This document shows, in pieces, positions 20,785 through 59,381 of a stretch of DNA of 64,000 bases (position 1 is the first letter of the stretch; each line of letters starts with the position of its first letter). The notes beneath the pieces were generated by a model. It had not been told where the DNA came from and did not search any database. It was given only the letters and a program-made list of their open reading frames with translations. This stretch comes from a virus. The stretch covers positions 62,001 through 126,000 of IMG/VR virus record IMGVR_UViG_3300008952_000006; one strand, written 5' to 3'. The translations under genes were made by a program, and so were the position numbers.

Positions 20785-21978
20785 TTAAACGACTCCTGGT
20801 CCTTGGGGCCCCTGGGGTCCGGGAGATCCCGGGGGCGCTGCGGCAGGTGGGCCCGCCATGCCCGGGCCAACAGGTGCGGGTGCGCCTGCAGGGGGTTGCG
20901 CGCCTTGCGGCGGCATCGCTCCCTCAGGCCCGGGCGGTGGCGGCGGTTGGGGAGCGCCAAATAATTGGGCTGCTGAAGATGACATATCGGGGCCTTTCAG
21001 GATAGCCAAAAGCTCCTGCATGCCCATCTGTGTTCTGACAACAGCCGCCTGTGCCATTTGAAGTTTCCCCGAGACGCTCTCAAGCTCTTGGGTTAGACCC
21101 GTAACTGGGTTTGACATCAGCATGCCCATCCCAAGCTTCTTAAGCTCCTCACCGTGCCCAAATTCAACTAAGCTTCCAACATGCTCACCAATAACGTTTA
21201 GTAGCCCTTCGGAAGCACCGCCAGCCTCAATTGCATAACCAATAATACCTGCGCTATTCCCGGCCCGAGAAGCCTCTTTGCACAGGTCCTTAAGAGCTGC
21301 CAGCTTGATGCAGAAGTGGTCGCCAAGAACTTCTTTTTCAGATTCAGCGTTTTTGTTCTCTGCGTGTAGGTCCAAAAATTCACGTGCGGCGTCCCTGGTG
21401 CCGGGGTTAACGTGAGGCTCGATACCAGCCTTCTTTTCTAGCGAGGCCCCGTAAGTGTTGAGGAATCCCTGAACCTGCTCTGGCGTGTAGTCTGGGTATG
21501 CCTGCTTTACGGCGTCCCTGGCTGCCACCCCCTGCTTAATAAGCGTGCGCACGGCGCTGACATTAGCGGTTTTTTCCATACCTGATCCAGTAAACACGTC
21601 CTCCAAATCAATGGCCTCTTGGCCAGCGATATACCGAAAGTGGCTAGGCACAGCAGGCCTGTTCACAGAGGCCGTCTTCTCTTTTGTGGGGGACAGGCTT
21701 TGAGCCACTGCTGTGGCCTCCGCCATGGGGAAAGTGATATTTTTATCGAAGCCAAGCTTAAACATGGTCGAAAAAGTATCATTATTTGCATACTCGGAGA
21801 CACGTTTAATCTGCTCGAGATTCAACCCAGACTCTTTGGCAAACTCTAGAATGGTGTCATTCAGCGGAGTCTTGTTCTGAACATACCGTACAGCAGCCTG
21901 CTTCCCCATGTGCCTAAGCTCCGAAGAAGAGAGACCAGCGTCTTCCTTGGTTAACAAATACTTTTCTAGTTCGTTCAT
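20785..21978 (-). CDS. helical virion protein with proline/glycine-rich tail
   Basis: 397 residues. Residues 1-320 are helical and contain MGKQA, KEKTA, MEKTA, LEKKA and IKLAA, all versions of the recurring motif. Residues 335-397 form a Pro/Gly/Ala-rich tail (PQPPPPPGPEGAMPPQG and later GSPGPQGPQGPG), which resembles collagen-like or disordered spacers. It is the gene right after terminase in the transcript, and its ATG overlaps the terminase stop (TAATG). It may be an internal head or portal-associated protein. No enzyme motif is visible. Confidence 0.5.
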   Translation of the reverse strand: MNELEKYLLTKEDAGLSSSELRHMGKQAAVRYVQNKTPLNDTILEFAKESGLNLEQIKRVSEYANNDTFSTMFKLGFDKNITFPMAEATAVAQSLSPTKEKTASVNRPAVPSHFRYIAGQEAIDLEDVFTGSGMEKTANVSAVRTLIKQGVAARDAVKQAYPDYTPEQVQGFLNTYGASLEKKAGIEPHVNPGTRDAAREFLDLHAENKNAESEKEVLGDHFCIKLAALKDLCKEASRAGNSAGIIGYAIEAGGASEGLLNVIGEHVGSLVEFGHGEELKKLGMGMLMSNPVTGLTQELESVSGKLQMAQAAVVRTQMGMQELLAILKGPDMSSSAAQLFGAPQPPPPPGPEGAMPPQGAQPPAGAPAPVGPGMAGPPAAAPPGSPGPQGPQGPGVV

Positions 21979-23615
21979 TAGTATCTCCGCTTCTTATTAT
22001 CTTCTTTGTCCCCTATAGGACTGATAATATCAGGTCTTGGGTGCTGCATCATAGAGGCCAAAAAACAATACGTTAGCGAATGAAGGGTATCATCCGTGGT
22101 ACCAGGGGTCCTCTGAACAACTGTGGTTCTCCTAGATTCATTATACTCCGTAAATACAGATAACATATCACTACCAAAGGGTTGTTCAATCTCTTCCCAT
22201 TTCGGAAAAGCAAATTCATTTTTTCGATTGAGTGCGTTAATAATCGCCATTAATGCCTCTGTTCGGTTCACCATGAATCTACTAAGGCTCTTATCAAAAT
22301 AGAGCTTTTTAGTGTTTACGTACTGATACCGCGCGATCCTTCGGATGCCAAATGTTCTAATTAGCTTATCATTTCTGTCAAACCCACCACCGTAGTCTAC
22401 ACCAACTACTGCTATATTAAAACGATCAATATAACCACTAATAACGCGCATTAAATTCTCAGGCTCGGCCTCCTCGCCCTCAAAGCGCTTCATAAGCAGG
22501 ATATTAAAGCGGTCCTTAATATAGCAACCTATAGTCATTACCGTGTAGGAATTCTCAGCGGTTCCCCAATCTATCCCCATAAACATTTTACTGCGTCCCC
22601 TGAACTTATCGGCGTCTGCCATGCTCCGGTCGGTGCAGTTCGCTATTAGGGTGTCTCTAGTCAGAGGCTTGCTACCAGAGTCAAATGGGAGCCCGAGCAC
22701 CTCGTTGTAAAACTGGGCTCTGCTGTAGCGTTTCTTCTTATCTAAAATTTCGTGCCAATTCACCCAAGGCGTAATCACCTGAGGAATTCTATACCCCTCG
22801 AAGGGCTCCTTGATTGGTGGGTTCTCCAGCCAGTGGGGGGACCTCATAGAGGCCCACTGGGCCTTCTCGTGGCTAGGGTTTATCTGCTTGTTGCACTTGT
22901 CACACATCAAGAAGTCGGGACCAATATTATCGATCCCTATCTTATTCCAAGCGTTACACCCGTCGCAAGGGATTACCCACTCGTTCTGGGTAGAGAACTG
23001 ACTCCAGTAGTAACTTATTGTATTATCGACGCTTTTGGGGGTTCCTGAATATCGCAGGATCTTGAGGGGGGAGTGTGCTAGAGCCTCTTCGATTACGGGG
23101 ATAACTTCCGTTAGAATGTCTTGGATCTCATCAAGAAGCAACATATCAGCCGAGATGCCACGGACACGATCAGCATGCAGGAAAGCATAGCGCATAGTTA
23201 GATCAGACCCAGTTATGAACTTCTTATACAGAACGTTATTCTTGGTGTTCTCTCCCCTGGAGAACACCTGTAGGTGGGGAGACATCTCGATAGGGGTAGC
23301 GATACGGTCTCTTGAAAACGTCTCAGTCTGCTGCTGGGTGGGGCTTACAAACAGCGCGCGAAAATGGCGTCGGAGCAGTGTATATGTAAGAATAATATTC
23401 CCGAGTGTGGTACTCTTCTCTACCTGCCGCCCACAGAGCAACAAAACTCTACGAGCGGGGGTATCATATATAGGGAGAAGGTATTCACGCCCTTTGAAGG
23501 AAAACTTATTGAGATCACCCCCTGTAGCAATATTCATAAAAGAACCCACAAACTCGGTAGGAAACATCTCCAGCGATTGCTGTATGGTTTCCTCTGTCTC
23601 GTGAACTCGAATCAT
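21978..23615 (-). CDS. terL: terminase large subunit
   Basis: 545 residues. The motor packages DNA into the prohead and cuts it. ATPase: Walker A-like LLLCGRQVEKSTTLGN (K67; the usual Gly before Lys is Glu66) and Walker B with DMLLLDEIQDI. Nuclease: GIDWGTAEN, VGVDYGGGFD and a final DDTLHSLTYC give the acidic metal ligands. An insert with CDGC and CDKC makes a four-Cys zinc ribbon near residue 220-245, also seen in GpA-type terminases. Length is typical. Its start codon overlaps, on the opposite strand, the start of a small plus-strand frame. Confidence 0.85.
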   Translation of the reverse strand: MIRVHETEETIQQSLEMFPTEFVGSFMNIATGGDLNKFSFKGREYLLPIYDTPARRVLLLCGRQVEKSTTLGNIILTYTLLRRHFRALFVSPTQQQTETFSRDRIATPIEMSPHLQVFSRGENTKNNVLYKKFITGSDLTMRYAFLHADRVRGISADMLLLDEIQDILTEVIPVIEEALAHSPLKILRYSGTPKSVDNTISYYWSQFSTQNEWVIPCDGCNAWNKIGIDNIGPDFLMCDKCNKQINPSHEKAQWASMRSPHWLENPPIKEPFEGYRIPQVITPWVNWHEILDKKKRYSRAQFYNEVLGLPFDSGSKPLTRDTLIANCTDRSMADADKFRGRSKMFMGIDWGTAENSYTVMTIGCYIKDRFNILLMKRFEGEEAEPENLMRVISGYIDRFNIAVVGVDYGGGFDRNDKLIRTFGIRRIARYQYVNTKKLYFDKSLSRFMVNRTEALMAIINALNRKNEFAFPKWEEIEQPFGSDMLSVFTEYNESRRTTVVQRTPGTTDDTLHSLTYCFLASMMQHPRPDIISPIGDKEDNKKRRY

Positions 23616-23845: not shown

Positions 23846-24115
23846 TCATTTCTCGCCCCCTACATCCGAAAAATCATTGCAGACAAAGTCAGATCTAACC
23901 GGAGACTGGGCGTACCTTGAGCACCAACCGTCACCCTTCCAAGACCTACCAGCAGTGTAGGTAAAGTTCTCACAGCTTCCACAGGACGCATAATCCTTAG
24001 ACACTCTGAGGTTGGGTGGGTTGGCCTGGGCTAGCTTTTGCCGAATTCCTTCCAAAGAATCTGGAGAAAAGGCCAGGAGACTTCTTTTGGGTTGTGGGTT
24101 TTTTGGCGTAGACAT
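23846..24115 (-). CDS. four-cysteine small protein, iron-sulfur or zinc-like
   Basis: 89 residues from ATG 24115. The open frame is longer upstream but that part overlaps the helicase gene, whose stop lies 119 bases inside this gene. The core CGSC, then GDGWCSRY and FVCNDF, places four Cys in a C-x2-C...C...C pattern like small HiPIP-type or zinc-binding phage proteins. The N-terminus is basic and disordered. A ribosome site is not obvious, so translation may be coupled. Ligand and role are unknown. Confidence 0.55.
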   Translation of the reverse strand: MSTPKNPQPKRSLLAFSPDSLEGIRQKLAQANPPNLRVSKDYASCGSCENFTYTAGRSWKGDGWCSRYAQSPVRSDFVCNDFSDVGGEK

Positions 24116-25772
24116 AGCGGGTCTTCCCTTGCGAATCTGTATATTTGTACAGGTGCTTTTTGTTCTTATAAGCCTTATAAAATTGCTTTTGCTGCGTAAA
24201 CTTTCCTCGCGCAACACTATCCATCCATTGGTCAGTTGTTCTGGGGGTTGTCTTGCCAAACATTCTTCCAATGACACCCGGCTTTGCGCTTTCCGGCGCA
24301 ACGCTCTGATACCTCCGGACATTGACAACACGCTCTTCTTCGGGGCGATGCTTCTGACCACCCAGCCTTCTAGCGCGGCCCTCGGCCTGCAAGACTCGCT
24401 GAGGGTTGAAGTGGCCGTCAAGAGAGTAAAACGCAGTGGAGTTTCTAAGGTCCAAGCCTTCAGCGCCCGCCCCACTCAGCACGATAACTCGCTTCTTACC
24501 CTCTTTGTAGTCTTTGACCCCAGCCTGTCTCGAAACGCCGGTAACCTTATCACCACCAACGGTGGTGCCCTTGCCCACAAATACTGCGTGAGAGATACCT
24601 AGGTCTTTTAGGCCAGCAGAGATAACGTCTATGCCGCCGCGCACAAGGTTTGAATAGAGGACCACTTTATTATCTGGCGCTTCTGCCAAATGCTGTTTAG
24701 TGTCCTGCAGTAACTTGCTAACTTTGGGGGTTCTCTTTGCGGACTGCGCAAGCGTTATATCGCTCCGCCCAGCCTCAAGAGAGTTCGAGAGTTGACGCGC
24801 CTGGGATATCTGCGCGAAGAGCATCTTGGCGTCTTTTACAGTTATATTAGGGTCTTTCTTCGTGATGTACTTTTTTATGGGGCCCAGTTTATCTAGAGAC
24901 AATTGGTACAGCCTGTACTGCTCCTTAGACATAGGGACTTCAACAACCTTGGTTTCCTTCCGAGGCATTGACTTGCCTTTCAGGCTCTTAGTCTCTACGT
25001 AGTCTATTTTTGTGCCTGTCCGCTCCCGTAACTCTGCGACATTCCGCATGCCGACAACTTTCTTCTTCGAATCGTTAAACCCCTTAGTAAACCCAATTGT
25101 CTCGGTGTACCTCCGCTTAAACTGCTTAGGGGTCATATCCCGAGTCCCCTCGGACAGGGTAAGCAACGTGGCTAACTCAGAAGGTCTATTATTAATCATA
25201 GACGCGGTGAGGCCCATAAAATTAGTAGCTAATTGCCGTGCCGCCTGGAGCGCCTTGTAGGTGCTCGCGCTCTCATTACGTGTCTTGTGAAACTCATCCG
25301 CAATGATGGTGTCTGCGCCCGTTCTCTTCATAAAGCCAATAGGGTCACGGCGAAACATCGCGTAGCTTACAATTGTATAGTCCTTGTCGGACTCCTCCCC
25401 GGGGCGGATGTACCCAGACTTTTTTGACTTCTCTGAGGAAGACCCAATTGCCTGCCATGTACTATTAGTGAACTTCTCAACACCGTTTGTTGCGAAGTTG
25501 TCTCGAAGGCCCGAGGGAACAATGACAATAGCCTTTCTGGCCTTGCCCTCATGCTTCATTTTCTCAAAGCCGTAGATGCTGGTGACAGTCTTCCCTGTGC
25601 CCATCTCATGGGCGAGGATCATCTTGCCCTTATTAGCGAAAAGCCTATCAATGGCCGCCGCCTGATGTTCATAGGGCTTAAACCACTCTTTCAAGGAAGG
25701 AATCCCTGTCCCGTGGGCAGGTTTATCCACTTTCTCAGCAGCCTTCTTTATTAAGTAGTCACCTAAGGGCAC
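23997..25772 (-). CDS. SNF2-like superfamily 2 helicase in the virion block
   Basis: 591 residues from GTG 25772 (AGG at 8 bases upstream). Two RecA-like domains: Walker A-type MGTGKT (57-62), DEFH motif II (159-162), SAT-like GLTASMINNRP, and motif VI QAEGRARRLGGQ near residue 460. These are hallmarks of SNF2/DEAD-like helicases that move on DNA or remove bound proteins. The N-terminus carries LIKKA (7-11), a version of the motif that marks head proteins here, and the C-terminal 100 residues are basic. It lies between terminase and internal-protein genes, so it may be packaged and act on host or phage DNA early. Packaging is inference. Confidence 0.75.
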   Translation of the reverse strand: MPLGDYLIKKAAEKVDKPAHGTGIPSLKEWFKPYEHQAAAIDRLFANKGKMILAHEMGTGKTVTSIYGFEKMKHEGKARKAIVIVPSGLRDNFATNGVEKFTNSTWQAIGSSSEKSKKSGYIRPGEESDKDYTIVSYAMFRRDPIGFMKRTGADTIIADEFHKTRNESASTYKALQAARQLATNFMGLTASMINNRPSELATLLTLSEGTRDMTPKQFKRRYTETIGFTKGFNDSKKKVVGMRNVAELRERTGTKIDYVETKSLKGKSMPRKETKVVEVPMSKEQYRLYQLSLDKLGPIKKYITKKDPNITVKDAKMLFAQISQARQLSNSLEAGRSDITLAQSAKRTPKVSKLLQDTKQHLAEAPDNKVVLYSNLVRGGIDVISAGLKDLGISHAVFVGKGTTVGGDKVTGVSRQAGVKDYKEGKKRVIVLSGAGAEGLDLRNSTAFYSLDGHFNPQRVLQAEGRARRLGGQKHRPEEERVVNVRRYQSVAPESAKPGVIGRMFGKTTPRTTDQWMDSVARGKFTQQKQFYKAYKNKKHLYKYTDSQGKTRYVYAKKPTTQKKSPGLFSRFFGRNSAKASPGQPTQPQSV

Positions 25773-30856: not shown

Positions 30857-31339
30857 TTAGACCCAGGGGATTGGTGGTGACCCTGGTGTAGTTTGCGTTC
30901 CGGATGCTGCCCACAATGATAATACCCCGTTTAGGACTATTGTTGAAGGCATAGTAGTAGCTGAAGGTGGCAATGTTGCCAAAATAATTAAATTTAAGGG
31001 GACCACAGGGGGTGCGTGAACAACCGGTGCGGGTGGCGTTACGTTCCCCGGGGCCGCGCACATTGTGGCGAATACGGTAAACCCCGCCGCCAAAGTTTCG
31101 TGTGATAGAATATTAACAGCGCCCCCCTGGGCGGCTTTAACAGTCGTAATAAATAGTTCCTCTCCTGCGTCTAAGCCGAGCGGGGTCCATTTAGGTATTT
31201 CACCGTTCTTAAAAAAAGCTCGAGCCACCTTTGCCCAACCGGAGACACAGTCCATATCTTCAGCCCCGGCAGCCAGTGCACCAGATACAGCAAGCTGGAT
31301 TGCCTCATCTACGTCTGCAATGGCTGTGGCGTAAGGCAT
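30857..31339 (-). CDS. small virion protein with hydrophobic Pro-rich C-terminus
   Basis: 160 residues from ATG 31339, chosen for its AGGTGA site 9 bases upstream. Residues 1-50 are helical (MPYATAIADVDEAIQLAVSG, then an acidic patch). The second half is Ala/Val-rich with Pro-rich spacers (VTPPAPVVHAPPVVPLNL). Its start overlaps the spike gene stop by one base. No family is recognised. Its place next to the spike candidate suggests a baseplate or tail-tip partner. Confidence 0.45.
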   Translation of the reverse strand: MPYATAIADVDEAIQLAVSGALAAGAEDMDCVSGWAKVARAFFKNGEIPKWTPLGLDAGEELFITTVKAAQGGAVNILSHETLAAGFTVFATMCAAPGNVTPPAPVVHAPPVVPLNLIILATLPPSATTMPSTIVLNGVLSLWAASGTQTTPGSPPIPWV

Positions 31340-32754
31340 TATTTCTTCACCTTTACTGTAGATGACCCAACCTTGTTCCAGGCGGGGGGCTGCGCAGGCG
31401 TTATTTGAATCATCCCGGGACTCGTCGGTCCCCAAGCAGTCAGTACCTGAAGCTGTGTTTTCATGTAGAGATCTAGGTCCGAAAATCTAACGACGCCCGT
31501 GTCAGCCGAATCACCAAGATCAATAGTTGTGGCATTAATATCCACGTGCGGAGACTTAATCTCAACGCTGTCTAGGACGTCCATTACGACTTTCTTGCAC
31601 GCCATTTCGAATTCATTACTCTTGAGAAACTCCATGTAGGCGCTTCCGTCCGCATCCTTTGCTCCCTCACCCCAGTCAAGTCGGGCTGAGCCGTGGACTG
31701 CCGCATAGAAGTCTTTCTCTATTTCGTGACGGATGCTGCCCTTTGTAAAAACAAAGTTGTCCCCATCACGGTTTAGCTGAAACGCATAGGTTACTTTGTC
31801 TTTATTATTACCGTCATCGTGATTATAAATAGTAATACTTATAACGCCCTTCTCCTCTGCGGTAATGCCCTCCTCTGGCGGACTGCCCTTGCCCTGCTTC
31901 AGATCCGCATTTGCAAATATATGCTCTGCGTCCACCTCAGTGTCTAAAGTTTCGTCCGTAAGTCTGCCTACACGCATCTCTACCGTATACTTACCTTTGG
32001 ATACATCTTCCTGCGTTAGGTCCTTAATATTATAACGCACCAATACGGGAGTTTCTTCAGCAGTTTTGAGCGCGTTCTTCTGATTCTCGTCTAAAAAATA
32101 ATTTGAGCTTGGTACGCTCCCAGTGCCTCCGGAGGGGGTTTCTCCATATGCCAGGACGGCATGACCCCATTCAATCTCTCCTACAGGGCTGTATGCCTGA
32201 TATTTTTGGAAGTAGTCCCTAACAACATTTTCGACAGGGATGTAAATTCTCTGCGCCAAACCTGTGGAGCCAATTTGCACTATCCCGCCCCTTCGGACCA
32301 CAATTTGGTTTTCGTCTGCTGTGCCGAGGTAGATGTCCCCGGGCTCTAGCGGGTGACGAAATCCGCGCCAACTGGGGTCTGTGTCCGTTTCATCAATGGT
32401 GGCGTATCTTTCCAGGCTTCCCGAACTAGAGCCCTCCAACCGCTCAGCAAGCGCCTCAGATTCAGTGGGCGCTACCGTGGTGGGGTTCAAAACAAAGCCT
32501 AAAATAAAGTGTGTCCCGTCCCCACAGGTACACACATAACAAGTAGAATCAATCTCAGGCATGAAGTGTACGCCGCCGCCATGATCTCGGTGGCAGTAAG
32601 GGGTTGCAAACGGGATAGGGCCCAATGGTCTAAGGGAGAAAACGGTTTCAAGATCCACAGTCCAATTCTCAAAGTTAACCGCAGTGACTCTAGCCAACGT
32701 TATATTTGCAGGCCCATTAGCATCGGAAACAGTCTTTGCGTACGGATCAGGCAT
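31339..32754 (-). CDS. baseplate spike-like protein (gpV/gp5 OB-fold)
   Basis: 471 residues. The N-terminal OB-fold is visible at about 15-90: ITLARVTAVNFENWTVDLET, then PYCHRDHGGGVHFMPEID and VCTCGDGTHFILGFVLN. This order of strands with the 'G...P..G..V.V...dg....ilG' feel is typical of gpV/gp5 type hub or spike proteins. Residues 150-390 form a middle domain, and the C-terminal part has repeating beta strands (VEIKSPHVDINATTIDLG) as in triple-stranded spikes. It follows the RNA polymerase gene by a TAATG overlap. Role in tail tip or membrane puncture is inference. Confidence 0.6.
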   Translation of the reverse strand: MPDPYAKTVSDANGPANITLARVTAVNFENWTVDLETVFSLRPLGPIPFATPYCHRDHGGGVHFMPEIDSTCYVCTCGDGTHFILGFVLNPTTVAPTESEALAERLEGSSSGSLERYATIDETDTDPSWRGFRHPLEPGDIYLGTADENQIVVRRGGIVQIGSTGLAQRIYIPVENVVRDYFQKYQAYSPVGEIEWGHAVLAYGETPSGGTGSVPSSNYFLDENQKNALKTAEETPVLVRYNIKDLTQEDVSKGKYTVEMRVGRLTDETLDTEVDAEHIFANADLKQGKGSPPEEGITAEEKGVISITIYNHDDGNNKDKVTYAFQLNRDGDNFVFTKGSIRHEIEKDFYAAVHGSARLDWGEGAKDADGSAYMEFLKSNEFEMACKKVVMDVLDSVEIKSPHVDINATTIDLGDSADTGVVRFSDLDLYMKTQLQVLTAWGPTSPGMIQITPAQPPAWNKVGSSTVKVKK

Positions 32755-35700
32755 TAATACGGCCCCTTTGTAAGCTTATCCTTCTTGCCAAATTCCGCAG
32801 AGAACGCAAGTCCGGGCGCTGGGTGCAGCCCGTGGATATCAGACTCCCAGCCCTCGTTTGCCGCACGGATGAATGTTTCTTTTAACTTCCTGTACTGAAG
32901 TCTGGCAAGCCAATCTGTTGTTTGGTCAAGCGGTAGTGTTTCTACACCGCGCAACATCGGCTCAGTCTTTATTGGATTTTTCATAGCCTTGTTCAAAGAG
33001 TTCGCATGTGACAAGGAGATGTAGTCCCCACGGATAAACTTGCTGGAATCGCCGGGGTCTGTGACCTTTCCAAGGTTAGTTAAAGCTTTCGTGACCACCT
33101 CAACATTTCTCTTCTTAATGCCCTCCTTCTCGTAGACTTTATGTATCTCGTCTGCGAGGTATCTCTGGACTGTTTCGATATTTGTTTTCTCTAAAAGCTC
33201 GTGCGGGTTTATGATCCCACCAGTCAGCGACTGACCGCGCCTAACCTTTGCGCCGCTCTTAACGGAGACCTCTAGGTTGCCCGGTACGTAGACTTCCTGA
33301 TTACCAATAGTAATGTCATGTCCACCGATTGGGCTTACCTTTACAGAAGATATGGTGCCAGTTGCAGGCGAAAGAATAGCGGAATTAGCAAGCTTTTCTG
33401 GCATTTTTAATAATTGTGAAACACGATGAATCCCGCTAACTACGGAGCTTCCGCCTCCCGCAACGCCACCGGTATGGAATGCCTTCATGGATAGCTGAGT
33501 GCCCCGCTCACCGATAGAGGTCCCAGCAATAAGACCTATATTGACCCCCTTAGCAATTGGGTTGCCATTGTCCGCAATACCGTAACACTTGGAACACAGG
33601 CCCTTGGAAAGCTCACATTTTAGAGGCGACCGGACGAGGACCTTGTCAACTTTTGATGACCTAAGTCTAGAGAGCATATTAGGGGTAATAAGTGACCCAC
33701 TCGGTATTTTTAATCCAGGTGCGGACACGGGCTTCGCAAGGTACCGGTCTACAATGTCTGAGTCAGCAGCCGCCAACGCAATGCCTCTTGTTGTTTTGCA
33801 GTCATCCCCAGCTATAACGTAAGATATAGTAGTATTAGCAATTTGCTTGTTCAAAGCTCCCGGAAGCTGGACGGACTGCACCTTTTTTATCAGGCCTGCT
33901 CGAGCACCAGAAGTGGTAACCCAGTAGTCCGACGATTGGAGTCCCTCAGCATATGACCTAGATACGGGGACCGGTATTACCCGACCTTTTGCGTTCTCAA
34001 CAAGCATTGGCGAAAGCAGCATTTGTTGAAGTTGCGCCCAAGAAGGTTTTACGCCAGCACTCTCCATAGCTTTTAACTTATTGCCACTCTTATCGAGGAG
34101 TTTTTTGGCCTCCACGCTCATGGCTTTAGATGCGGCAGTGTAGAGATCAACAAGCTTGGCGTCTCCCGCCTCCCTCGAAATCATGTTCAGGCCTACCTGT
34201 TTTTGTATCACAGATTCTTGCTTACGAGCGACCGCCATATGCTTTTCTCGGATATCCCTTAGAGACTTGAAATCGTCAAGACCAAAGGAGAAACCAATAT
34301 TGTATGCGTGACCAAACCCTAACTCTTTTATCTTATCAGCAGTATCCGCAAACTCTGCTGGTGTCTTCGTCGCGATGTCATGTAGTATATTTTGTAGTAG
34401 TTTTTTATCCACAACAGCGGTTGGATCTGTCAGGTAGCGGTCTGACTGAACTTTCTTAGGTAGCTTGCTATTAAAAATAATACGGCCTGCGGTCGTTTTG
34501 GACGCTCCGACCTGGACAACATCGCTCATGCTGATGTTTCCTTCTTTTGCGTCTTTAAGGGCATCTTTCGAGTTTCGGTATGACTTTTTCACATCCTTGC
34601 CCCACTTAGTAAGCAGGTAGAGTCCAAGCTGTCCCTCCAGGGTAGGTTGGTACATTACCCGCCCTGTTGCGGGGTTAAACAAGTTCTTAGATGGCATCAT
34701 CTTGTAAGACTCGTCTACTGCCTCCTGCGAAACCGGAACAAACACAGCCATAGTATCCCCGTCAAAATCAGCATTAAACCCACCCACCACAAGAGGGTGG
34801 ATATGAATTGCTGACTCTTTATGGAGACGTGGCTTAAAAGCCATAATCCCAAACTTATGGAGGACGGGGTCTCTTTTGAAGAGAACAGGACGCTTACTGA
34901 CTGCAACATCCAGCGCTTTGTTTGCTAGGGTGGTGTTCTTCTCCACCTCTTCCCGTGCCTTCAGAGGGGAGTACCCCATCTTCACAAGCTCTTTGACCAC
35001 GAAGGGCCGGTAAATCTTCATGGCCCCTTTTCTGGGTAGGCCCATCTCATCCAGGTGTAAGTTCATGTCAGGAACGATGACAGAGCGCATACTGATGTCT
35101 TGCCGTCTATCTACGAGCCTCTGTAGAAAGAAACTCTGCTTAGGGCTGGATCTCCCTGAGAGTATATGGAGTATGCCTGGGGGAGCGGGCTGCCCGTCAA
35201 CCGTGACGCTACCCTGGGTGGCTGTTTGAACCCCCATCAAGGCCTCTGTGGCCTCGTACAAGTCACTCCGCAAACCGGCCACCGCGCTCTCTGGAAGAAC
35301 TCCTTTGGCTTCATCAAGCTTCTTGTTTAGCAGGGCGATATCTCGGTAGAGCATGTTAACGCCGTCGATGTTTAGGTCCCCGCCCTCCATTGCCGTGATC
35401 GGCCTAAACAGGGGCGGTAGTACGGGCACGTTATCTATTACGTAAGCTTCCTCAGCGCTCAGCTTGTTTTTCTGTAGCATCAAGAGGTATTTAATCTTCT
35501 TGTTTACGCGGTCCAGGTCACTGCGCCGAGCTGTCTTAATCTGCTCTTTAGCGGCGGCCAGATCCCCTTCTATATCTACAGAAGACAACCTTAGAGCAAG
35601 GGCGGACGGTCCAGACGCAGTGTCTTCTGTGGCCTCAACCAGATTGCCCTCGGAGTCGAAGCCAAGCTTGCTTGCTATAATCGCGTCATACTCCTTGCCA

Positions 35701-38700
35701 GTCAGCCCTAAGAGAGACCGAATACCTTTTTCAAACACAGGGTTTGGTAGGGACGAGGCAAGCGCTATGTGGGACCAGTTTTTCCCCCCAGGCCCACCAG
35801 TGATATCCTCATCAAAAAGACCCCCCTTTTCAGGCTTTAGATCCTTTCCTCGGATAACGCGACTGCCATCCTTTATCTCACCGCTAGACATAGCCACAAT
35901 CTGCTTGTCTGTAAGAGGTGAAACAATGAGACCGTTTCCATCCTTCTCAACGTTCAACCCAAGAGCATTCATGTACGCTAGGAACTTCTCATAGGCAAAT
36001 GACGGCTTTGGCGACGGCAATATGGCACCAGTCTGGATCGCGGTCCAAACCTCGTCTTGGGCCTTGTCTCCCTTGTATGTAAGAGCATCTCTGATATTGG
36101 CCGTTGCGCCATGAGCAAGCATAGCGTAGAGGCCAAGCTCACCAAACCTTTGGGCCCCACCAGTTTTACCGCCGCTCTTAGGCACAAGATTGGCATCGTA
36201 GTCATAGCCATAACCATGAGACCTAGCGCTTAACTTCTTGTCCACTTGGTGCATCAGCTTAAGAAAGTACTGGTGACCAACCAAAACCGTGCCAAGACTT
36301 TTCCCTGTTTCGGGGTCAAAAAGTTCACGGGTCTCCGAGAGCCCCGCACCCTTCAGAGCAGCGTCTACCGCATCACGGTAACCCAACTCACGCTCATGCT
36401 CCTTAACCTCTACCTTCTTGGGGCCTGACTTTGTCTGTATGGTCCGAGTGTGTGCTTTAACACGGATTACCTTCTTTCGGTCATCTGACTGAAAGTTCTC
36501 AACCGCGTAGGGCTCACCGTTAGCAGCGGCAACATTCCCTAAAGCAGTCTCTAAAACTTGGCCTGGGTTGATCCGGCCAGGAACCCCAGAAGGGTTTAGG
36601 GCGATCTGGAGGGCGTTCCCATCAGAATCTTTGGGCATCTCCTCATCCGGTATTACAGCCGTGATGACCCCTTTATTCCCGTGGCGGCCAGATAATTTAT
36701 CACCAATGTCTGCGGGTTCTTCTGTCTTGACATGCACCAAGACCTCTCGCCCATTGCGAACGACGTCAGTAACCTCGCCACGATAGGGTTTATCCCAAAC
36801 AACTGACTTGTTCTTATAGGGACGCACCAATGACTTGTGTATGCCACGTAGAAGTAACTGTTCCTTGGAGGGCTCAACCTTCTGCAGGACTGTTGTGATT
36901 ACGTCCCCAGGGTTGACGATCTCACCCTTCTTGATGACTCCGTCAGCATCTAGCTTGGTGGCGTTTTCCTCTGAGATCGAACCTGGGTAATGCGCACGAA
37001 ACTTCTTAAGGCCCAGAAGCATGGTTTTGTCTACATAGGCGCGTTCTTTGTGCAGGTGGACACTTGTTAATTTCTCTGACGCAGACTCACTAATAACTAT
37101 ACCATCCTCAAACACCAGCCCCTTGTATGGTAAGTAGCCCACCCGCAAGTTCGTTCCCAAGGCCAAGGTTCCATTATTAGTGAAATTAGTATCAGCAATG
37201 ATTTGGCCCTCGGAAACCCTATCGCCCTTCTTAACTAAGGAGTTGCTGGTAATAAAGGCCTTCTTGTCATTAAGGGGGAAGTTATCGTATAGCTGCACGT
37301 CATGTTTCTTCCCGTCTGCGCTTTTTATGATGACCTTCGAGGAAGATACAGAAGACACAAAGCCGGAAACAGGTGATGAGTGCGACGTAAACCGACCCAC
37401 AATCTTCTCCCAAGTAGAGTAATCCTCATGCTTGTTACCAGACACAACCTGCACCAGTGGCTGCTCTGGGTTTTTTAAAGAGATAGACTGTGAAAGATGC
37501 CGAGTGGCCATGCCTGCCCGGTTTGCTTGATCCGAGGGTAAAAAAGGAACCAGATTAGCAGTAATAGAAAACATCTGCTTGGGTGACTCTAGTACATAGT
37601 CAACTTGGTCTGCCGCGACCTTGCTGGGGTCTTCACCGCCAGCAGGAATGACCACCACGTGATCGCTCTTCGGAGTGAGCGATTTGTTGGGGCCCTTTGA
37701 GTACTGATCCGAGAAGGCCACGTTCCCTACCGACAGCTCAGATGGGGACTTCTCGACGTATTTTCCCGCGTTAACATCGAATACCCTTATCCGTGGCGTT
37801 ACGCCCTTTTTACGGACCCCAAGGGAAAGGTGCCCACTAATGCCTGACCGTTTTCCTTCCGGGGTGTGTACTGGGTCGATAAACCCTAGAAAACTTGAGT
37901 CAATAAGCTTGGCCTCTTCCGAGATTGCTGCATCGCTCTGGATCCCCCCAGTACCCATAATGGTAGTTCGTAAGAAGCCGCCCATCATATCTACGGGGTT
38001 AACTTGGGATGTTTGTTGGGATAAGGACGTTGATGTAAAGAAAGCCTTGATGGGTACGTTAAAGATGTCGGGCGTCACAATGGCCCTGACGTTATCTTTA
38101 CGGTCCAGATTGTTCATCATCTTGTACGTGATTCTTCTCTTGGAATTCTGGATACGCTCAGGGATATGATTGTCAATTGACCAAAGCTCTTTAAATTGCA
38201 GCGAGTCGCGATTATCAACTTGAGCAGTGCCTTTGTTTATATCTACTAATTTCTGAGAAGATGCTAGAAGGGCCCCGCCTGTTACCGAGCTAAAGGCTTG
38301 GCCTAGCGTAACGGCAGTCGTGTCCTCTCGCAGACCCGTGTCCTTGAGCACCTCTTGTATGACGGGGGTTGCTTCCGCATCAGTTTTTACAGGCACGTTC
38401 CTGGCTAGGGCTCTGGATAGCTTAACAAGCTCGCCTCTTTTCTTTGCAGCCACAGCGCTCGTATACAGCTCTGGGCCCCAGGAAGACCGTATCGTATCGT
38501 CATCTACGCCCAGGGCCTGCAAGACTGGGAGGAGTTGGACATTTGTTGAGCCGTAAGACATCAAAAATCTTCGTTTGGTTGGGTCAAAACCAAGCCGGAA
38601 ACCGCGCCCTTTAGTTAAGTTGAACTGGGACTCGAGGTCACCGTTTGCCTTACGTCTGGCATAAACACCGGACTTCAAGCGCCACTGGTTGTCCGCTTGA

Positions 38701-39029
38701 TATTCTGTCCCGTCTATGATGTAGCTATATCTGCGTGTGATCTTTGGGAGGTTTAGTACCTTGAGTTTTTTATTGGAACTGACGACCTTCCCTGTCGCGT
38801 TGTCAACAAGAGAAAAATCACCAAAGATACCTTGCGCCCAGGTGCGGCCTCGGAGACGCGCCTTCTTCTGGCTTGCGATGTCGTCCTCATCCACAGGGTC
38901 ACCAACGTATATTTCCTTGGCCACAAGTGTGTGCTTCTTCCCTACCAAGGGAAAGAACCGTTTAATTTCTTCTATCGTCCCGTCTTCAAGGGTTTTCATC
39001 ACCCTCTGGGGATCGAGCACATTAGACAT
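32754..39029 (-). CDS. rpoBC: single-chain RNA polymerase, fused beta and beta' halves
   Basis: 2091 residues with no internal stop. Beta half: FIDPVHTPEGKRSGISGHL near 380, VPFLPSDQANRAGMATRHL, NLRVGYLPYKGLVFEDGIV, DIGDKLSGRHGNKGVI near 774 and GGAQRFGELGLYAMLAHGA near 955. Beta' half: LKPEKGGLFDEDITGGPGG then IALASSLPNPVFE; VLPPLFRPITAMEGGDLN; a rudder-lid region; VDRRQDISMRSVIVP near 1300; NADFDGD at 1419-1425 (the three catalytic Asp); trigger-loop region ending TTSGARAGLIKK; and a zinc site with CELSKGLCSKCYG. The N-terminal zinc-binding domain of beta' is missing. E. coli beta plus beta' total about 2750 residues, so this chain is compact. No alpha, omega or sigma is seen here. Position in the virion block leaves open whether it is packaged. 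Confidence 0.93.
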   Translation of the reverse strand: MSNVLDPQRVMKTLEDGTIEEIKRFFPLVGKKHTLVAKEIYVGDPVDEDDIASQKKARLRGRTWAQGIFGDFSLVDNATGKVVSSNKKLKVLNLPKITRRYSYIIDGTEYQADNQWRLKSGVYARRKANGDLESQFNLTKGRGFRLGFDPTKRRFLMSYGSTNVQLLPVLQALGVDDDTIRSSWGPELYTSAVAAKKRGELVKLSRALARNVPVKTDAEATPVIQEVLKDTGLREDTTAVTLGQAFSSVTGGALLASSQKLVDINKGTAQVDNRDSLQFKELWSIDNHIPERIQNSKRRITYKMMNNLDRKDNVRAIVTPDIFNVPIKAFFTSTSLSQQTSQVNPVDMMGGFLRTTIMGTGGIQSDAAISEEAKLIDSSFLGFIDPVHTPEGKRSGISGHLSLGVRKKGVTPRIRVFDVNAGKYVEKSPSELSVGNVAFSDQYSKGPNKSLTPKSDHVVVIPAGGEDPSKVAADQVDYVLESPKQMFSITANLVPFLPSDQANRAGMATRHLSQSISLKNPEQPLVQVVSGNKHEDYSTWEKIVGRFTSHSSPVSGFVSSVSSSKVIIKSADGKKHDVQLYDNFPLNDKKAFITSNSLVKKGDRVSEGQIIADTNFTNNGTLALGTNLRVGYLPYKGLVFEDGIVISESASEKLTSVHLHKERAYVDKTMLLGLKKFRAHYPGSISEENATKLDADGVIKKGEIVNPGDVITTVLQKVEPSKEQLLLRGIHKSLVRPYKNKSVVWDKPYRGEVTDVVRNGREVLVHVKTEEPADIGDKLSGRHGNKGVITAVIPDEEMPKDSDGNALQIALNPSGVPGRINPGQVLETALGNVAAANGEPYAVENFQSDDRKKVIRVKAHTRTIQTKSGPKKVEVKEHERELGYRDAVDAALKGAGLSETRELFDPETGKSLGTVLVGHQYFLKLMHQVDKKLSARSHGYGYDYDANLVPKSGGKTGGAQRFGELGLYAMLAHGATANIRDALTYKGDKAQDEVWTAIQTGAILPSPKPSFAYEKFLAYMNALGLNVEKDGNGLIVSPLTDKQIVAMSSGEIKDGSRVIRGKDLKPEKGGLFDEDITGGPGGKNWSHIALASSLPNPVFEKGIRSLLGLTGKEYDAIIASKLGFDSEGNLVEATEDTASGPSALALRLSSVDIEGDLAAAKEQIKTARRSDLDRVNKKIKYLLMLQKNKLSAEEAYVIDNVPVLPPLFRPITAMEGGDLNIDGVNMLYRDIALLNKKLDEAKGVLPESAVAGLRSDLYEATEALMGVQTATQGSVTVDGQPAPPGILHILSGRSSPKQSFFLQRLVDRRQDISMRSVIVPDMNLHLDEMGLPRKGAMKIYRPFVVKELVKMGYSPLKAREEVEKNTTLANKALDVAVSKRPVLFKRDPVLHKFGIMAFKPRLHKESAIHIHPLVVGGFNADFDGDTMAVFVPVSQEAVDESYKMMPSKNLFNPATGRVMYQPTLEGQLGLYLLTKWGKDVKKSYRNSKDALKDAKEGNISMSDVVQVGASKTTAGRIIFNSKLPKKVQSDRYLTDPTAVVDKKLLQNILHDIATKTPAEFADTADKIKELGFGHAYNIGFSFGLDDFKSLRDIREKHMAVARKQESVIQKQVGLNMISREAGDAKLVDLYTAASKAMSVEAKKLLDKSGNKLKAMESAGVKPSWAQLQQMLLSPMLVENAKGRVIPVPVSRSYAEGLQSSDYWVTTSGARAGLIKKVQSVQLPGALNKQIANTTISYVIAGDDCKTTRGIALAAADSDIVDRYLAKPVSAPGLKIPSGSLITPNMLSRLRSSKVDKVLVRSPLKCELSKGLCSKCYGIADNGNPIAKGVNIGLIAGTSIGERGTQLSMKAFHTGGVAGGGSSVVSGIHRVSQLLKMPEKLANSAILSPATGTISSVKVSPIGGHDITIGNQEVYVPGNLEVSVKSGAKVRRGQSLTGGIINPHELLEKTNIETVQRYLADEIHKVYEKEGIKKRNVEVVTKALTNLGKVTDPGDSSKFIRGDYISLSHANSLNKAMKNPIKTEPMLRGVETLPLDQTTDWLARLQYRKLKETFIRAANEGWESDIHGLHPAPGLAFSAEFGKKDKLTKGPY

Positions 39030-39113
39030 CCGTCCCTCCGTGCTAACACGGTGCGTTAGTTAGGTATAAGAACTATGGGCAATATAGCCCTCATAAGAAA
39101 AGGAGTACTGTTG
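39030..39113 (+). promoter_or_regulatory. divergent regulatory gap with GGTATAAG motif (39063-39070)
   Basis: This 84-base gap separates the RNA polymerase start (minus) from a small plus-strand gene. GGTATAAG ends 43 bases before the plus-strand ATG at 39114. The same 8-mer at the same spacing occurs before 43127. A near-palindrome (CTAACACGGTGCGTTAG, 39041-39057 region) could be an operator. On the minus strand, TATATT lies upstream of the GGAGGGACGG ribosome site of the polymerase gene. Confidence 0.45.
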
Positions 39114-39197
39114 ATGAGAGAAGCAAGCAAAACCACGCAAGCCTCGACAACCGAGGATCTGGCAGACGCAGTCGAAAAATCCCTGAGCGGTAAGTAA
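39114..39197 (+). CDS. 27-residue peptide
   Basis: Reads MREASKTTQASTTEDLADAV then EKSLSGK. AGGAG lies 8 bases before the ATG. The peptide is hydrophilic with a short helical part. It starts the two-gene plus-strand island between the polymerase and portal genes and ends 3 bases before the TTG of the next gene. Being so short, it could be a leader peptide for that gene or an independent small protein. Confidence 0.45.
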   Translation: MREASKTTQASTTEDLADAVEKSLSGK

Positions 39198-39200
39198 AAG

Positions 39201-39416
39201 TTGAAGACTGTAAAAAAGATCCAGTGCTTTATAAAGAGTGGTTGGTGCCGAACGCCAGCCAACTGTGGCGAATGCGAGTACTTTCTGGACCATAAAATAA
39301 ACCGTTGGGTTTGCGTCAAATGTCTTAAACATAACGATGCAACCTCCAGCTTTTTCCAGAAGGGGCGGTGTGACCGCTGCGAAAAGTCATCAGCGATATT
39401 GGTTTGTGTAGGTTAA
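39201..39416 (+). CDS. small zinc-ribbon protein
   Basis: 71 residues from TTG 39201 (no in-frame ATG before the Cys cluster). Three C-x2-C pairs (CGEC, CVKC, CDRC) plus Cys 9, 16 and 69 would bind two zinc ions in ribbon form, typical of proteins that touch nucleic acid or RNA polymerase. It sits beside the phage RNA polymerase gene on the opposite strand, which suggests a possible transcription accessory factor. Its stop shares TTAA with the portal stop. Role is inference. Confidence 0.5.
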   Translation: MKTVKKIQCFIKSGWCRTPANCGECEYFLDHKINRWVCVKCLKHNDATSSFFQKGRCDRCEKSSAILVCVG

Positions 39417-41380
39417 ATCTGTGCACTACCGGGTCCTGATCTAGGTGGTAACTTGTCTGGTAGTGGTTGCATGGGAGCCATGCCCCCTCCAGACAAAGCG
39501 TTATTCACCAGCATATACAAATCCGGGTTCGCGGCACGTAACTGTGCCAGAACCCGGTACCTTTCCACTTCATTCATCTTTTTTAGCTCGGAGGTCATTT
39601 TGCGAGCCTGGGCAAAAAGATCAACCATGGGGCTCTGTGTGGCCTGGACCGGACTCTGCGCTACGCCTTGGACCACGCCCCCCGCTGCCTCTTGCCCCTG
39701 CGCCTGCTCTGGAGCAGGTTGTTGTTGTTGCTCTGCCCCAGCCTGCTGCTCTGCCCCAGCCTGTTGTTGATCGGGGGAGCCGCCTTGCTGTTCTGCCCCG
39801 GGCGGAGGGCCGTACTGTTGCTGCATTTTTGCTTGGTTTTCTTGTTGCATGTTCTGGGATTGGATCTGATACCGAGTCTGGATAAGCATGGCTTCGCCCT
39901 GCGCCTCTGTTTGCTTAATCTGCTGCTCGCGTTGGGTGAGGTTAAGTCGTTGGGATTCCTTGTTTATGAGATCCTGCTCAGTGTCAAAGTTGTAGTCCCT
40001 AGATTGCAAGAAGGTTCTACGACTAATCATCCCCGCGTTAGCAAGGTTCATATCAAAAGAGGCCCGCTGAATATCATCAGCCATCTTGAAGGGCTTGAAT
40101 TTTAAACCGATCTTAGGGAGATTCAAAAACTGAGAAACGCGGTCTCGGATAAACTCAACACACCGAAGCATGTCTTGCCTATTGCCCAGGAACTCGTTTT
40201 CCAGGGCACGCAAGTTTACCGAAGCGCCCGAGTACTGGGCCTCGCCATAAAAGAAGCCCGTAGGGACACCCATCCCCGCGATGATTTGGTCGGAGTAAAC
40301 CCGTAGCTCTTGGTGCAGCAGGAGACTCCTGCCTTGACCACCAATCATTTGGTACCCGATAGGGACGGGCATAACAGGGATATGGTTATTGTCTTGCCGC
40401 CAGCGCTTTATCTGATGCTGAACTTCCTTCTGCCAGTCCGCTAAGTTGATTTGGGCATAAGGATTATTACCATCAGTCGATACCTGCGGAAACATAACCC
40501 GCATAGGGACAATATGCTCCAGGGCCACAGCTTCCTGGGCTTTTCGTAGTATCTGTAGAAAGAAGATGTCCTTTAGAACCGGAAGGATAAGGGGTGCTCC
40601 CCAACCGCTATCGGAGGGCTCACGAGAAATAGACGGCCTGCGACTGTGGAAGATCTTGGAGCTGTCTAGAAGGACAGACCTTTTCTTCCGTAAGGAGTCA
40701 ATAAAAGCTTGGGGAATCGTCTCCAACACATCAGGCTTGCCGAGGGTGATGTCGTTCTTCAATGTCCGGGGCATTTTATAGTAATAGAGGTAACGGCCAG
40801 TTATCTCATTGTATTTTATAGTAATATGCTTTGGGTTCCAGCGGATAAGGCGTATTTTAACAGCTGCCTTAACGGGCTCATCAACCACTTTCGCGGGTCC
40901 GTGGTGGTTGCATTGGGGGCAGTCAAAATGGAACTGGTAACCCTTCCACTTGTAGCCAGCTTTTTTAGCGGGCGCGCTGTGCCCGCAAGAGGTGCAGTGA
41001 AGAACTTTTGTGAACGGAAACGCCACAGAGACAAAAGAATTTCCATATGTATATCGATCAAGATTGACTTCAATCAAAAATGACCGCAGCAGAAACTGCT
41101 TCTCAAACAAGTCCTTATACGCCCCCACTAGACCAACATTATCATCTTCGTAAACCAAGTCCGTGATCGGATAAGTTGCTAATTTCTGGGTTACTGCATT
41201 TATAAGCGGATTGGTAAGCTGGTAGTAATGGCACCAGTCAAAGGTATCTTTGATGGTTTTAGGTATGTAATTTTTGGCAACGTCAAAGAACGGGCTAGGG
41301 TAAAAGGACTCCGGGCGGCCAACAGACTTTGCTCGAGAACTTGCGGAAGATAGGCCATACCTCTGTGATCCGTAATCCAT
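39413..41380 (-). CDS. portal protein
   Basis: 655 residues. Portal proteins form the dodecameric DNA gate of the head. Recognised elements: YTYGNSFVSVAFPF in the stem/wing region, the crown/stem block SGWGAPLILPVLKDIFFLQ, and a typical helix set GYQMIGGQGRSLLLHQELR then VPTGFFYGEAQYSGASVN. An insert at about 125-160 with CTSCGHS and CPQCNHH makes a four-Cys zinc ribbon. Residues 500-590 are Gln/Ala-rich and low in complexity. The tail is Pro/Gly rich. Gene order and length (typical 450-700) support the call. Confidence 0.75.
   Translation of the reverse strand: MDYGSQRYGLSSASSRAKSVGRPESFYPSPFFDVAKNYIPKTIKDTFDWCHYYQLTNPLINAVTQKLATYPITDLVYEDDNVGLVGAYKDLFEKQFLLRSFLIEVNLDRYTYGNSFVSVAFPFTKVLHCTSCGHSAPAKKAGYKWKGYQFHFDCPQCNHHGPAKVVDEPVKAAVKIRLIRWNPKHITIKYNEITGRYLYYYKMPRTLKNDITLGKPDVLETIPQAFIDSLRKKRSVLLDSSKIFHSRRPSISREPSDSGWGAPLILPVLKDIFFLQILRKAQEAVALEHIVPMRVMFPQVSTDGNNPYAQINLADWQKEVQHQIKRWRQDNNHIPVMPVPIGYQMIGGQGRSLLLHQELRVYSDQIIAGMGVPTGFFYGEAQYSGASVNLRALENEFLGNRQDMLRCVEFIRDRVSQFLNLPKIGLKFKPFKMADDIQRASFDMNLANAGMISRRTFLQSRDYNFDTEQDLINKESQRLNLTQREQQIKQTEAQGEAMLIQTRYQIQSQNMQQENQAKMQQQYGPPPGAEQQGGSPDQQQAGAEQQAGAEQQQQPAPEQAQGQEAAGGVVQGVAQSPVQATQSPMVDLFAQARKMTSELKKMNEVERYRVLAQLRAANPDLYMLVNNALSGGGMAPMQPLPDKLPPRSGPGSAQI
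39712..39800. repeat. tandem Gln/Ala-coding repeat in the portal C-terminus
   Basis: Imperfect repeats of a roughly 18-base unit around CTGCCCCAGCCTG encode the AEQQAGAEQQ-type stretch. The region expands the disordered portal tail. Its exact copy number may vary between relatives. Confidence 0.6.
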
Positions 41381-58959: not shown

Positions 58960-59004
58960 ACCCCTTGTATGCGTATTACTACGCATATAGGGGGTCTTTT
59001 TTTA
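58960..59004 (+). terminator. strong intrinsic terminator of the replication operon
   Basis: Stem GACCCC..TATGCGTA (58960-58976), loop TTAC, TACGCATA..GGGGTC (58981-58997), then TTTTTTT (58998-59004). About 14 base pairs with an internal mismatch zone. A smaller hairpin (GCCCG/CGGGC, 58932-58951) comes first. It ends the long plus-strand operon. Confidence 0.9.
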
Positions 59005-59037
59005 CCCCCAAAAAGTGCAAAAATAGACCCCTTTTTA

Positions 59038-59045
59038 GGGATAAG
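59038..59045 (+). promoter_or_regulatory. GGGATAAG promoter-like element
   Basis: GGGATAAG differs by one base from the GGTATAAG elements at 39063 and 43076. It lies 71 bases before the small membrane gene, between a strong terminator and that gene, so a promoter is needed here. Spacing differs from the other two copies, so this is weaker evidence. Confidence 0.3.
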
Positions 59046-59061
59046 AATGATGAAGGAAGGG

Positions 59062-59103
59062 TTGTGTATCTCTCCCCCTTCACCTTTTCTCACAGATACA
59101 CAG
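59062..59103 (+). promoter_or_regulatory. leader hairpin before the small membrane gene
   Basis: GTGTATCT (59064-59071) pairs with AGATACAC (59094-59101), extended by T-A and T-G on the outside, around a 22-base C/T-rich loop. It ends just before the AGGGAGAAAC ribosome site of the following gene, so it may affect mRNA stability or translation. Confidence 0.55.
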
Positions 59104-59116
59104 GGAGAAACTAAAA

Positions 59117-59332
59117 ATGGCTATTTCAATTTTCAAAAAGCAGACCAAAAAACCAAACCAGATTGAACAATTCGGGAAGGCAGTGGGGGGCCAAGTAGCG
59201 GTGATGATCGCCGCTAGCGCGGTATTGACACTGATCGATACAGGGGTGTCCTTCGCTAGCCAAAAGGTAAACGACCTTAGGGCGAAGCGAGCGGCGGCTA
59301 AGGCCGAAGAGGCTGCTCCGACTGCTGCGTAA
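59117..59332 (+). CDS. small single-span membrane protein in its own transcription unit
   Basis: 71 residues. A basic N-terminus (FKKQTKKPNQ) is followed by a span at about residues 22-42 (GGQVAVMIAASAVLTLIDTG) and a charged Ala-rich C-terminal helix (LRAKRAAAKAEEAAPTAA). AGGGAG precedes the ATG. The gene is flanked by terminators on both sides, with a promoter-like element and leader hairpin, so it is expressed alone. Role is unknown. It may be a membrane-acting early or lysis-related factor. Confidence 0.6.
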   Translation: MAISIFKKQTKKPNQIEQFGKAVGGQVAVMIAASAVLTLIDTGVSFASQKVNDLRAKRAAAKAEEAAPTAA

Positions 59333-59349
59333 GCAGCAAGTCGAGAAAG

Positions 59350-59381
59350 TAGGGGACGCGAAAGCGTACCCCTATTTTTTT
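59350..59381. terminator. GAAA-tetraloop terminator between convergent genes
   Basis: TAGGGG-ACGC (59350-59359), loop GAAA, then GCGT and CCCCTA (59364-59374), followed by seven Ts. It ends the plus-strand unit. The T-run overlaps the stop codon of the minus-strand fibre gene. On the minus strand the T-run is weak, so it may act mostly in one direction. Confidence 0.85.

Follow-up and report, generated by a model that had tools for sequence, protein, structure and literature searches.

A single-chain beta-beta' RNA polymerase in a tailed-phage lineage, with a sigma-70-like companion and a candidate promoter motif

Introduction

Fusions of the bacterial rpoB and rpoC genes, known in Helicobacter and Wolbachia, place beta and then beta' in one chain and yield cellular enzymes with all the bacterial elements. 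The polymerases of phages are described, in the reviews consulted, either as lying in pieces or as divergent single chains. Here we analyse a 64,000-nucleotide stretch of viral DNA (the window; bases 62001-126000 of the 173,034-bp IMG/VR record IMGVR_UViG_3300008952_000006), in which an earlier note, made from the letters alone, had pointed out an RNA polymerase with fused beta and beta' halves. Among the papers searched, none describes a phage beta-beta' fusion like this one, although that does not prove that there is no such description.

Several described systems come close to this locus. Phages of the phiKZ and AR9 type also encode two-barrel polymerases, one of which is packaged, and the non-virion RNA polymerase (nvRNAP) of phiKZ has a sigma-like specificity subunit, gp68 (PMC7598289, PMC13282480). 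Their cores, however, come in four or five pieces and are far more divergent, with two enzymes per phage. The phiKZ-like combination of a core in four or more polypeptides and two enzymes per genome was not found here: the window's polymerase is one chain and the only locus in its record to match PF04997, a search that a very divergent second copy could escape. The crAss-like phage phi14:2 (gp66) and Thermus phage P23-45 do have both barrels in one chain, as in the window, and virion enzymes are known among them (PMC10770324). The mReC phages of metagenomes are described as having beta and beta' subunits, a PF07068 capsid protein, a PF03237 terminase and contigs >200 kb, and fusion is mentioned for crAss-like phages only (PMC7481178).

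Results

One frame with beta and beta' domains in natural order

The frame of 2091 codons is present and uninterrupted, with an ATG start and no internal stop; it lies on the minus strand, which the earlier note had left unstated, and plus-strand translation of 32754-39029 is riddled with stops (Table 1). Pfam places the beta domains Rpb2_3 (residues 340-403), Rpb2_6 (554-939, E=2e-56) and Rpb2_7 (958-997) ahead of the beta' domains Rpb1_1 (1154-1265), Rpb1_2 (1375-1445), Rpb1_3 and Rpb1_5, that is, in their natural order along the chain, with a short joint connecting the two parts. Against bacterial beta' chains in the PDB, phmmer returned E ~1e-110, whereas the crAss-like and P23-45 enzymes have no cellular-profile match according to the mReC authors (PMC7481178). 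The domain order and the phmmer match bear out a genuine phage beta-beta' fusion.

The motifs that had been noticed could be located at residues 781-788 (GRHGNKGV), 1419-1425 (NADFDGD) and 1744-1815 (zinc-binding segment). Alignment with the E. coli enzyme shows that the beta part keeps the acidic pair (FEDG) and the GDK...GRHGNKG lysine region, and the beta' part NADFDGD, the bridge and trigger helices, the clamp coiled coil and the four cysteines of the second zinc ribbon. In bacteria the clamp coiled coil is the sigma-docking element. The N-terminal zinc ribbon of beta' (E. coli C70/C72/C85/C88) is deleted, and large lineage-specific insertions, including those of the flap and the trigger loop, are absent. 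The description of both halves as nearly complete holds for the catalytic elements, all of which are kept, but with these losses the beta' half is not fully complete. By a cysteine-pattern test (CxC...CxxC), the first ribbon is missing from all 54 phage rows of the fused or split type, whereas all 12 bacteria and all 13 phages with separate beta' and beta genes (two-gene phages, see below) have it.

A predicted model of residues 893-2091, which span the joint, had a mean pLDDT of 87.6 and a pTM of 0.84 with 36 relatives in the alignment, and the nearest solved structures were bacterial beta' chains (TM 0.80). From its sequence the enzyme looks active and bacterial-like. The positions that contact rifampicin (E. 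coli F514, D516, H526 and S531) all read as altered in the alignment, to Q, S, G and T, and we therefore predict that early transcription would be rifampicin-resistant.

Relatives and the age of the fusion

Three profile scans of IMG/VR collected 135 distinct relatives. Intact full fusions make up 104 of them; in 12 the chain breaks within beta', ahead of the bridge helix, the arrangement of Salmonella phage Arash; 18 are cut by contig ends or have their last part outside the locus; and one (L169) is readable throughout only with TGA as tryptophan. No break at the beta/beta' junction occurs in any of the 135, neither as separate beta and beta' genes at the same position nor as a stop or frameshift between the halves, the two observations that the earlier note had named as able to overturn its claim. 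The single frame is kept in relatives of 60-87% identity, and 104 independent intact fusions rule out an assembly artefact.

We consider it very improbable that the fusion is processed after translation into beta and beta' chains and is in practice a two-subunit enzyme. Phages do cleave virion proteins and the Arash lineage tolerates a two-piece enzyme, but none of the relatives has its gene interrupted at the junction, and no cleavage site turned up, although none was sought.

In trees of 67 and 37 rows over 1671 aligned columns, from fast searches in which branches were long and Archaea had a single row, the fused and split phages, Arash and Vibrio phage D69 included, form one clade (Shimodaira-Hasegawa-like approximate likelihood ratio test, SH-aLRT, 99, and 98 with a mixture model). 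Bacteria form a separate clade with support 100, and the phage polymerases lie outside it. Within the phage clade the deepest branches (L203, L207 and L106) carry the fusion, and all split forms group in one derived clade (support 94 and 99). As judged from these trees, the fusion is ancestral in the phage clade and the split of beta' is derived, and the clade is placed outside the sampled Bacteria, with no age claimed. Recent capture of a bacterial rpoB-rpoC fusion is unsupported, since the phage clade lies outside Bacteria, a test limited by the long branches and by the absence of the Helicobacter and Wolbachia fused genes from the trees.

Some members of the wider collection deserve mention in their own right. 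The fused frame of L169 (6984-12907 of a 102-kb IMG/VR phage) has five in-frame TGA codons and ends in TAA TAA; since at least two of the TGA codons align with tryptophan in relatives, this phage probably reads TGA as tryptophan. The fused relative L015 has lost all zinc-ribbon cysteines and carries NADNDGD in place of NADFDGD; a single-protein query with it returned only L015 itself. Insertions of 340-410 aa, starting with C or NC and often ending with GN or HN, interrupt the polymerase ORFs of L065, L094, L168, L172 and L209 in the trigger loop, HGNKGVIT, GDKL or near the beta C-terminus, and from these features they are probable inteins in active-site motifs. Compact fused two-barrel polymerases of ~1000-1550 aa (L111, L112-L122, L124-L126, L129), on contigs of bacterial metagenome-assembled genomes (MAGs), form a separate clade in the trees. 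Several records filed as phages (OR844998, OR846602, CAKLQH020000005, AFYI01000006 and similar) carry ordinary bacterial rpoB-rpoC and are probably host DNA contamination; the same appears to hold for H4-H7, H9-H11, H13 and others, two of which served as bacterial references only.

Relation to the two-gene phages

The remark of the earlier note that phages with multisubunit polymerases are known from metagenomes runs two types together: the mReC group most likely has separate beta' and beta genes, unlike the fused type. Both are tailed phages whose beta and beta' are of cellular type and can be aligned, with NADxDGD and a branch outside Bacteria. The possession of beta and beta' with NADxDGD in a clade apart from cellular enzymes is common to the fused and the two-gene types and so does not decide mReC membership. 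As a stand-in for mReC we used the two-gene type, matched to the published description and not to the authors' own sequences: a search seeded with phages Carin-5 and GN1 gave 57 IMG/VR loci with separate beta' (~900 aa) and beta (~1000 aa) genes. The Gp23 capsid protein (PF07068) was found in none of 35 fused-type records, that of the window included, versus 11 of 25 two-gene genomes or records; all seven tested two-gene IMG/VR records >200 kb and three isolates have it. The terminase in the window's record matches PF03237 weakly (E=0.001, below the cut-off) and fits PF05876 better. The mReC phages most likely have beta' then beta genes, the Gp23 capsid protein and the first zinc ribbon, and the fused type has none of these. 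Simple filing of the fused type under mReC was rejected for want of the Gp23 capsid protein and the two-gene layout. Metagenome 3300017989, the one named for mReC1 and mReC3, is the source of two two-gene loci and also of one fused locus (L162). Judged by the published description, most mReC phages probably belong to a lineage other than the fused one, and some fused phages may lie within the mReC set.

Among the two-gene loci, L212, L214 and L216-L271 have the gene order beta' then beta, with the Gp23 capsid protein in the larger records, and probably represent mReC. In Carin-5 a sigma gene adjoins the beta' and beta genes. A contig of a 'Woesearchaeota MAG' (L123, genome G051) carries a two-gene phage polymerase, with a Gp23 match in the same MAG, and is probably a phage contig binned with an archaeon.

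A sigma-70-like protein accompanies the fused lineage

Pfam region-2 matches, mostly weak, led to a family of 240-330 aa proteins in several fused phages that includes Gp10 of Arash. The homologue in the window's genome lies outside the window (160267-161190 of the record, minus strand), with E=5e-102 against a six-member profile built without that genome and E=4e-116 (match at 160270-160998) against one that includes it as a row. It matches Sigma70_r3 above the cut-off (E=1e-6) and region 2 weakly, and regions 2 and 3 and a C-terminal helix-turn-helix are present in sigma-70 order. Pfam regions 2 or 4 alone missed this protein in its own genome, where only the family-specific profile found it. 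Its predicted model is confident per domain, with an overall pTM of only 0.38, and the top Foldseek matches are sigma factors (E=4e-8), per domain only. A weak region-4 match at 32470 proved to be an unrelated ORF and was rejected as a sigma.

Across 46 records, the Gp10-type sigma is present in 29 of 35 of the fused type and in none of 11 two-gene phages (Fisher p ~1e-6, shared ancestry ignored). It lies on the strand of the polymerase in 28 of 29 records, and in the window's genome it sits among long virion-like genes. A dedicated sigma-70-like factor, as established by profile comparison, thus travels with the fused lineage. No alpha subunit was found in any of 22 records, whereas the control was detected in 13 of 14 genomes. 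Given the sigma-70-like protein that the lineage itself encodes, and with no alpha turning up, the partners first suggested (host alpha or sigma, or none) are not the best guess. A second, canonical sigma-70 region 2 protein is present in some phages of the fused or split type (G012, G020, G026, G028, G029, W01, W02); Arash Gp196 is one.

A bipartite motif on the opposite strand

An unbiased search for words in the regions ahead of genes of three related genomes returned GGTATAAG and, at a fixed distance, GCAAA. The bipartite motif GCAAA-N14-16-GGNATAAG has 8, 7 and 5 sites in the three genomes versus 0-0.2 in shuffled genomes. Nearly all sites of the form GCAAA-N-G.ATAAG have a spacer of 16-17 nt; the two halves co-occur almost only at this spacing, which is what a sigma-70-type site would be expected to show. 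The exact motif occurs in 18 of 43 records, all of the fused type, and in none of 11 two-gene phages; a reversed-pattern control gave 1 site in 43 records. Most sites (53/57) are on the other strand from the polymerase. A ribosome-binding-like sequence and an ORF usually come within the next 16-60 nt. A word search for a motif shared on the virion strand gave nothing convincing.

The window has a complete unit of this kind at 58960-59381, in which a hairpin with a T-run (from 58960) precedes the motif and its 71-aa ORF, and a second hairpin with a T-run (from 59352) follows. A weaker site beside the polymerase start points away from it, and a similar site stands beside the polymerase start in relative G001.

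These hexamers bear on whether the core replaces or boosts the host RNA polymerase by teaming up with alpha, omega or sigma of the host. The bacterial-like clamp and flap elements that are retained would suit such a role, yet a dedicated sigma family accompanies the lineage, the promoter hexamers are unlike TTGACA/TATAAT, no consensus sigma-70 site was found in the strict form tested, and phage alpha is absent, though host alpha is not thereby excluded. We regard dependence on host subunits as improbable.

Virion genes and the proteome of Arash

The polymerase gene stands, as the earlier note had it, in a virion block. The portal gene lies a short way upstream, as it does in 24 of 29 relatives checked, and the terminase large subunit (TerL) gene and a weakly matched capsid gene are on the same strand. 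The downstream neighbour of 471 aa is a probable tail or baseplate component. Two distinct SF2-type helicase genes lie on opposite strands, one in the virion block (23997-25772) and one in a replication block (43883-45286). A tRNA scan found none.

Table 1. Features located in the window
Feature	Position	Strand	Remarks
Fused beta-beta' RNA polymerase, 2091 aa	32754..39029	-	Frame, Pfam, phmmer; 104 intact fused relatives
Beta-like part, residues 1 to ~1032	35934..39029	-	Junction placed by profile matches
Beta'-like part, residues ~1033 to 2091 (~1059 residues)	32757..35933	-	N-terminal zinc ribbon absent
GRHGNKG, residues 781-787	36669..36689	-	Region of the beta active-site lysines
NADFDGD catalytic motif, residues 1419-1425	34755..34775	-	
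Second beta' zinc ribbon	33585..33800	-	Complete; cysteines 1744, 1805, 1812, 1815
90-aa ORF	39060..39332	-	Between portal and polymerase
Portal protein	39413..41380	-	Homologue of Arash Gp204, E=1e-93; conserved upstream neighbour
471-aa gene	31339..32754	-	Starts on the last base before the polymerase stop codon; conserved downstream neighbour
SNF2-type helicase	23997..25772	-	Homologue of Arash virion protein Gp217, E=1e-37
TerL	21978..23615	-	
Promoter-like motif GCAAA-N16-GGGATAAG	59017..59045	+	Exact match to the family motif
71-aa ORF	59117..59332	+	Downstream of the 59017 motif
Weaker promoter-like site	39041..39070	+	-10 match GGTATAAG at 39063-39070; beside polymerase start, opposite strand
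27-aa ORF	39114..39197	+	Downstream of the 39063 site; preceded by AAGGAG

The split form of the polymerase is found in isolated phages, namely Salmonella phage Arash and Vibrio phages D69, D148 and D181. These enzymes (Gp206 and Gp216 in Arash) share 32-34% identity with that of the window over beta and the first part of beta' and 25-26% over the rest, and the phages have in common with it the portal gene upstream, a Gp10-type sigma and an SNF2 helicase. They differ in that their chain is interrupted within beta', ahead of the bridge helix, giving ~1525 + 606 aa, whereas the window's chain is whole. In all split loci examined (Arash and D69 included), as in the window, the portal gene adjoins the polymerase with one small gene between. 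Sequence comparison identifies Gp206 as beta plus the first part of beta'; the two pieces were published as 'beta' and 'beta'' subunits, in the accessible text without remark on fusion (PMC10585845).

Others have shown that the homologues of core, sigma and helicase are present in purified Arash virions. Among 116 proteins of sucrose-gradient-purified particles, Gp206 was the most detected (3516 spectra, 128 unique peptides), above the major capsid protein, with 1210 spectra for Gp216, 1148 for the helicase Gp217 and 467 for the sigma Gp10; the second sigma, Gp196, is not among the virion proteins listed (PMC10585845).

On one alternative account, the fused chain is synthesised once infection has begun, serves middle or late transcription and does not belong to the virion, and its detection in Arash particles is carry-over. 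The Arash authors themselves offer carry-over as an alternative (PMC10585845), and the same preparation yielded many metabolic enzymes. Against carry-over, the polymerase tops the Arash detection, above the major capsid protein, and sigma and helicase are present where the second sigma Gp196 is unlisted; against a non-virion enzyme, the gene lies among virion genes on their strand, with the portal upstream in most relatives, and the motif lies on the other strand. We judge this account unlikely, though the strongest of the alternatives.

Discussion

The reading that we favour, as probable, is that the single-chain polymerase of the window is packaged, depends on sigma and initiates early transcription together with a dedicated phage sigma and an SNF2 helicase. 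Core, sigma and helicase would be produced late in infection, when the virion genes are expressed, and would then enter the virion and be delivered along with the DNA. The sigma would then direct the core to -35/-10-type promoters (GCAAA, ~16-17 nt, NATAAG) on the non-virion strand, and the early genes would thereby be transcribed without host alpha, omega or sigma. The fusion with its catalytic residues, the shared ancestry, the sigma homologue with its co-occurrence and the motif with its strand bias are established by sequence analysis; for the window phage we infer packaging, a sigma-core interaction, a working motif and the temporal role. That the enzyme transcribes phage genes, as the earlier note had supposed, is probable.

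Several points weigh against this reading. Arash is a distant relative with beta' in two pieces, its authors warn of the carry-over of abundant intracellular proteins (PMC10585845), and some of its 116 virion-listed proteins were probably carried over from infected cells. The window phage is known from sequence alone, from a record that may be incomplete. The motif was defined in three related genomes, many fused-type records are without the exact pattern, and so are the split-type phages except for one site in Arash; it could also be read by the host RNA polymerase aided by a factor from phage or host. The 'early' timing, finally, is drawn from the strand of the motif, which speaks to strand and not to timing.

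More broadly, a widespread lineage of tailed phages may package a complete sigma-dependent holoenzyme made up of the single-chain core, the dedicated sigma-70-type factor and the SNF2 helicase, with a core that branched outside all sampled Bacteria, and start infection from its own -35/-10 promoters independently of the host, a generalization for which we consider the balance to be even.

Altogether, the fused form of phage polymerase is real and widespread and has so far gained little recognition; the mechanism proposed for it is plausible but unproven. The packaged two-barrel phage polymerases known so far are in pieces or too divergent to align with cellular enzymes, whereas here a near-complete, readily alignable beta-beta' enzyme is found as one chain, together with a sigma-type partner and a candidate promoter. 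Two questions thereby become testable: how an enzyme that depends on sigma but lacks alpha is put together and initiates, and how the bacterial-type polymerase diversified in phages. A one-gene core may also be of use for in vitro transcription.

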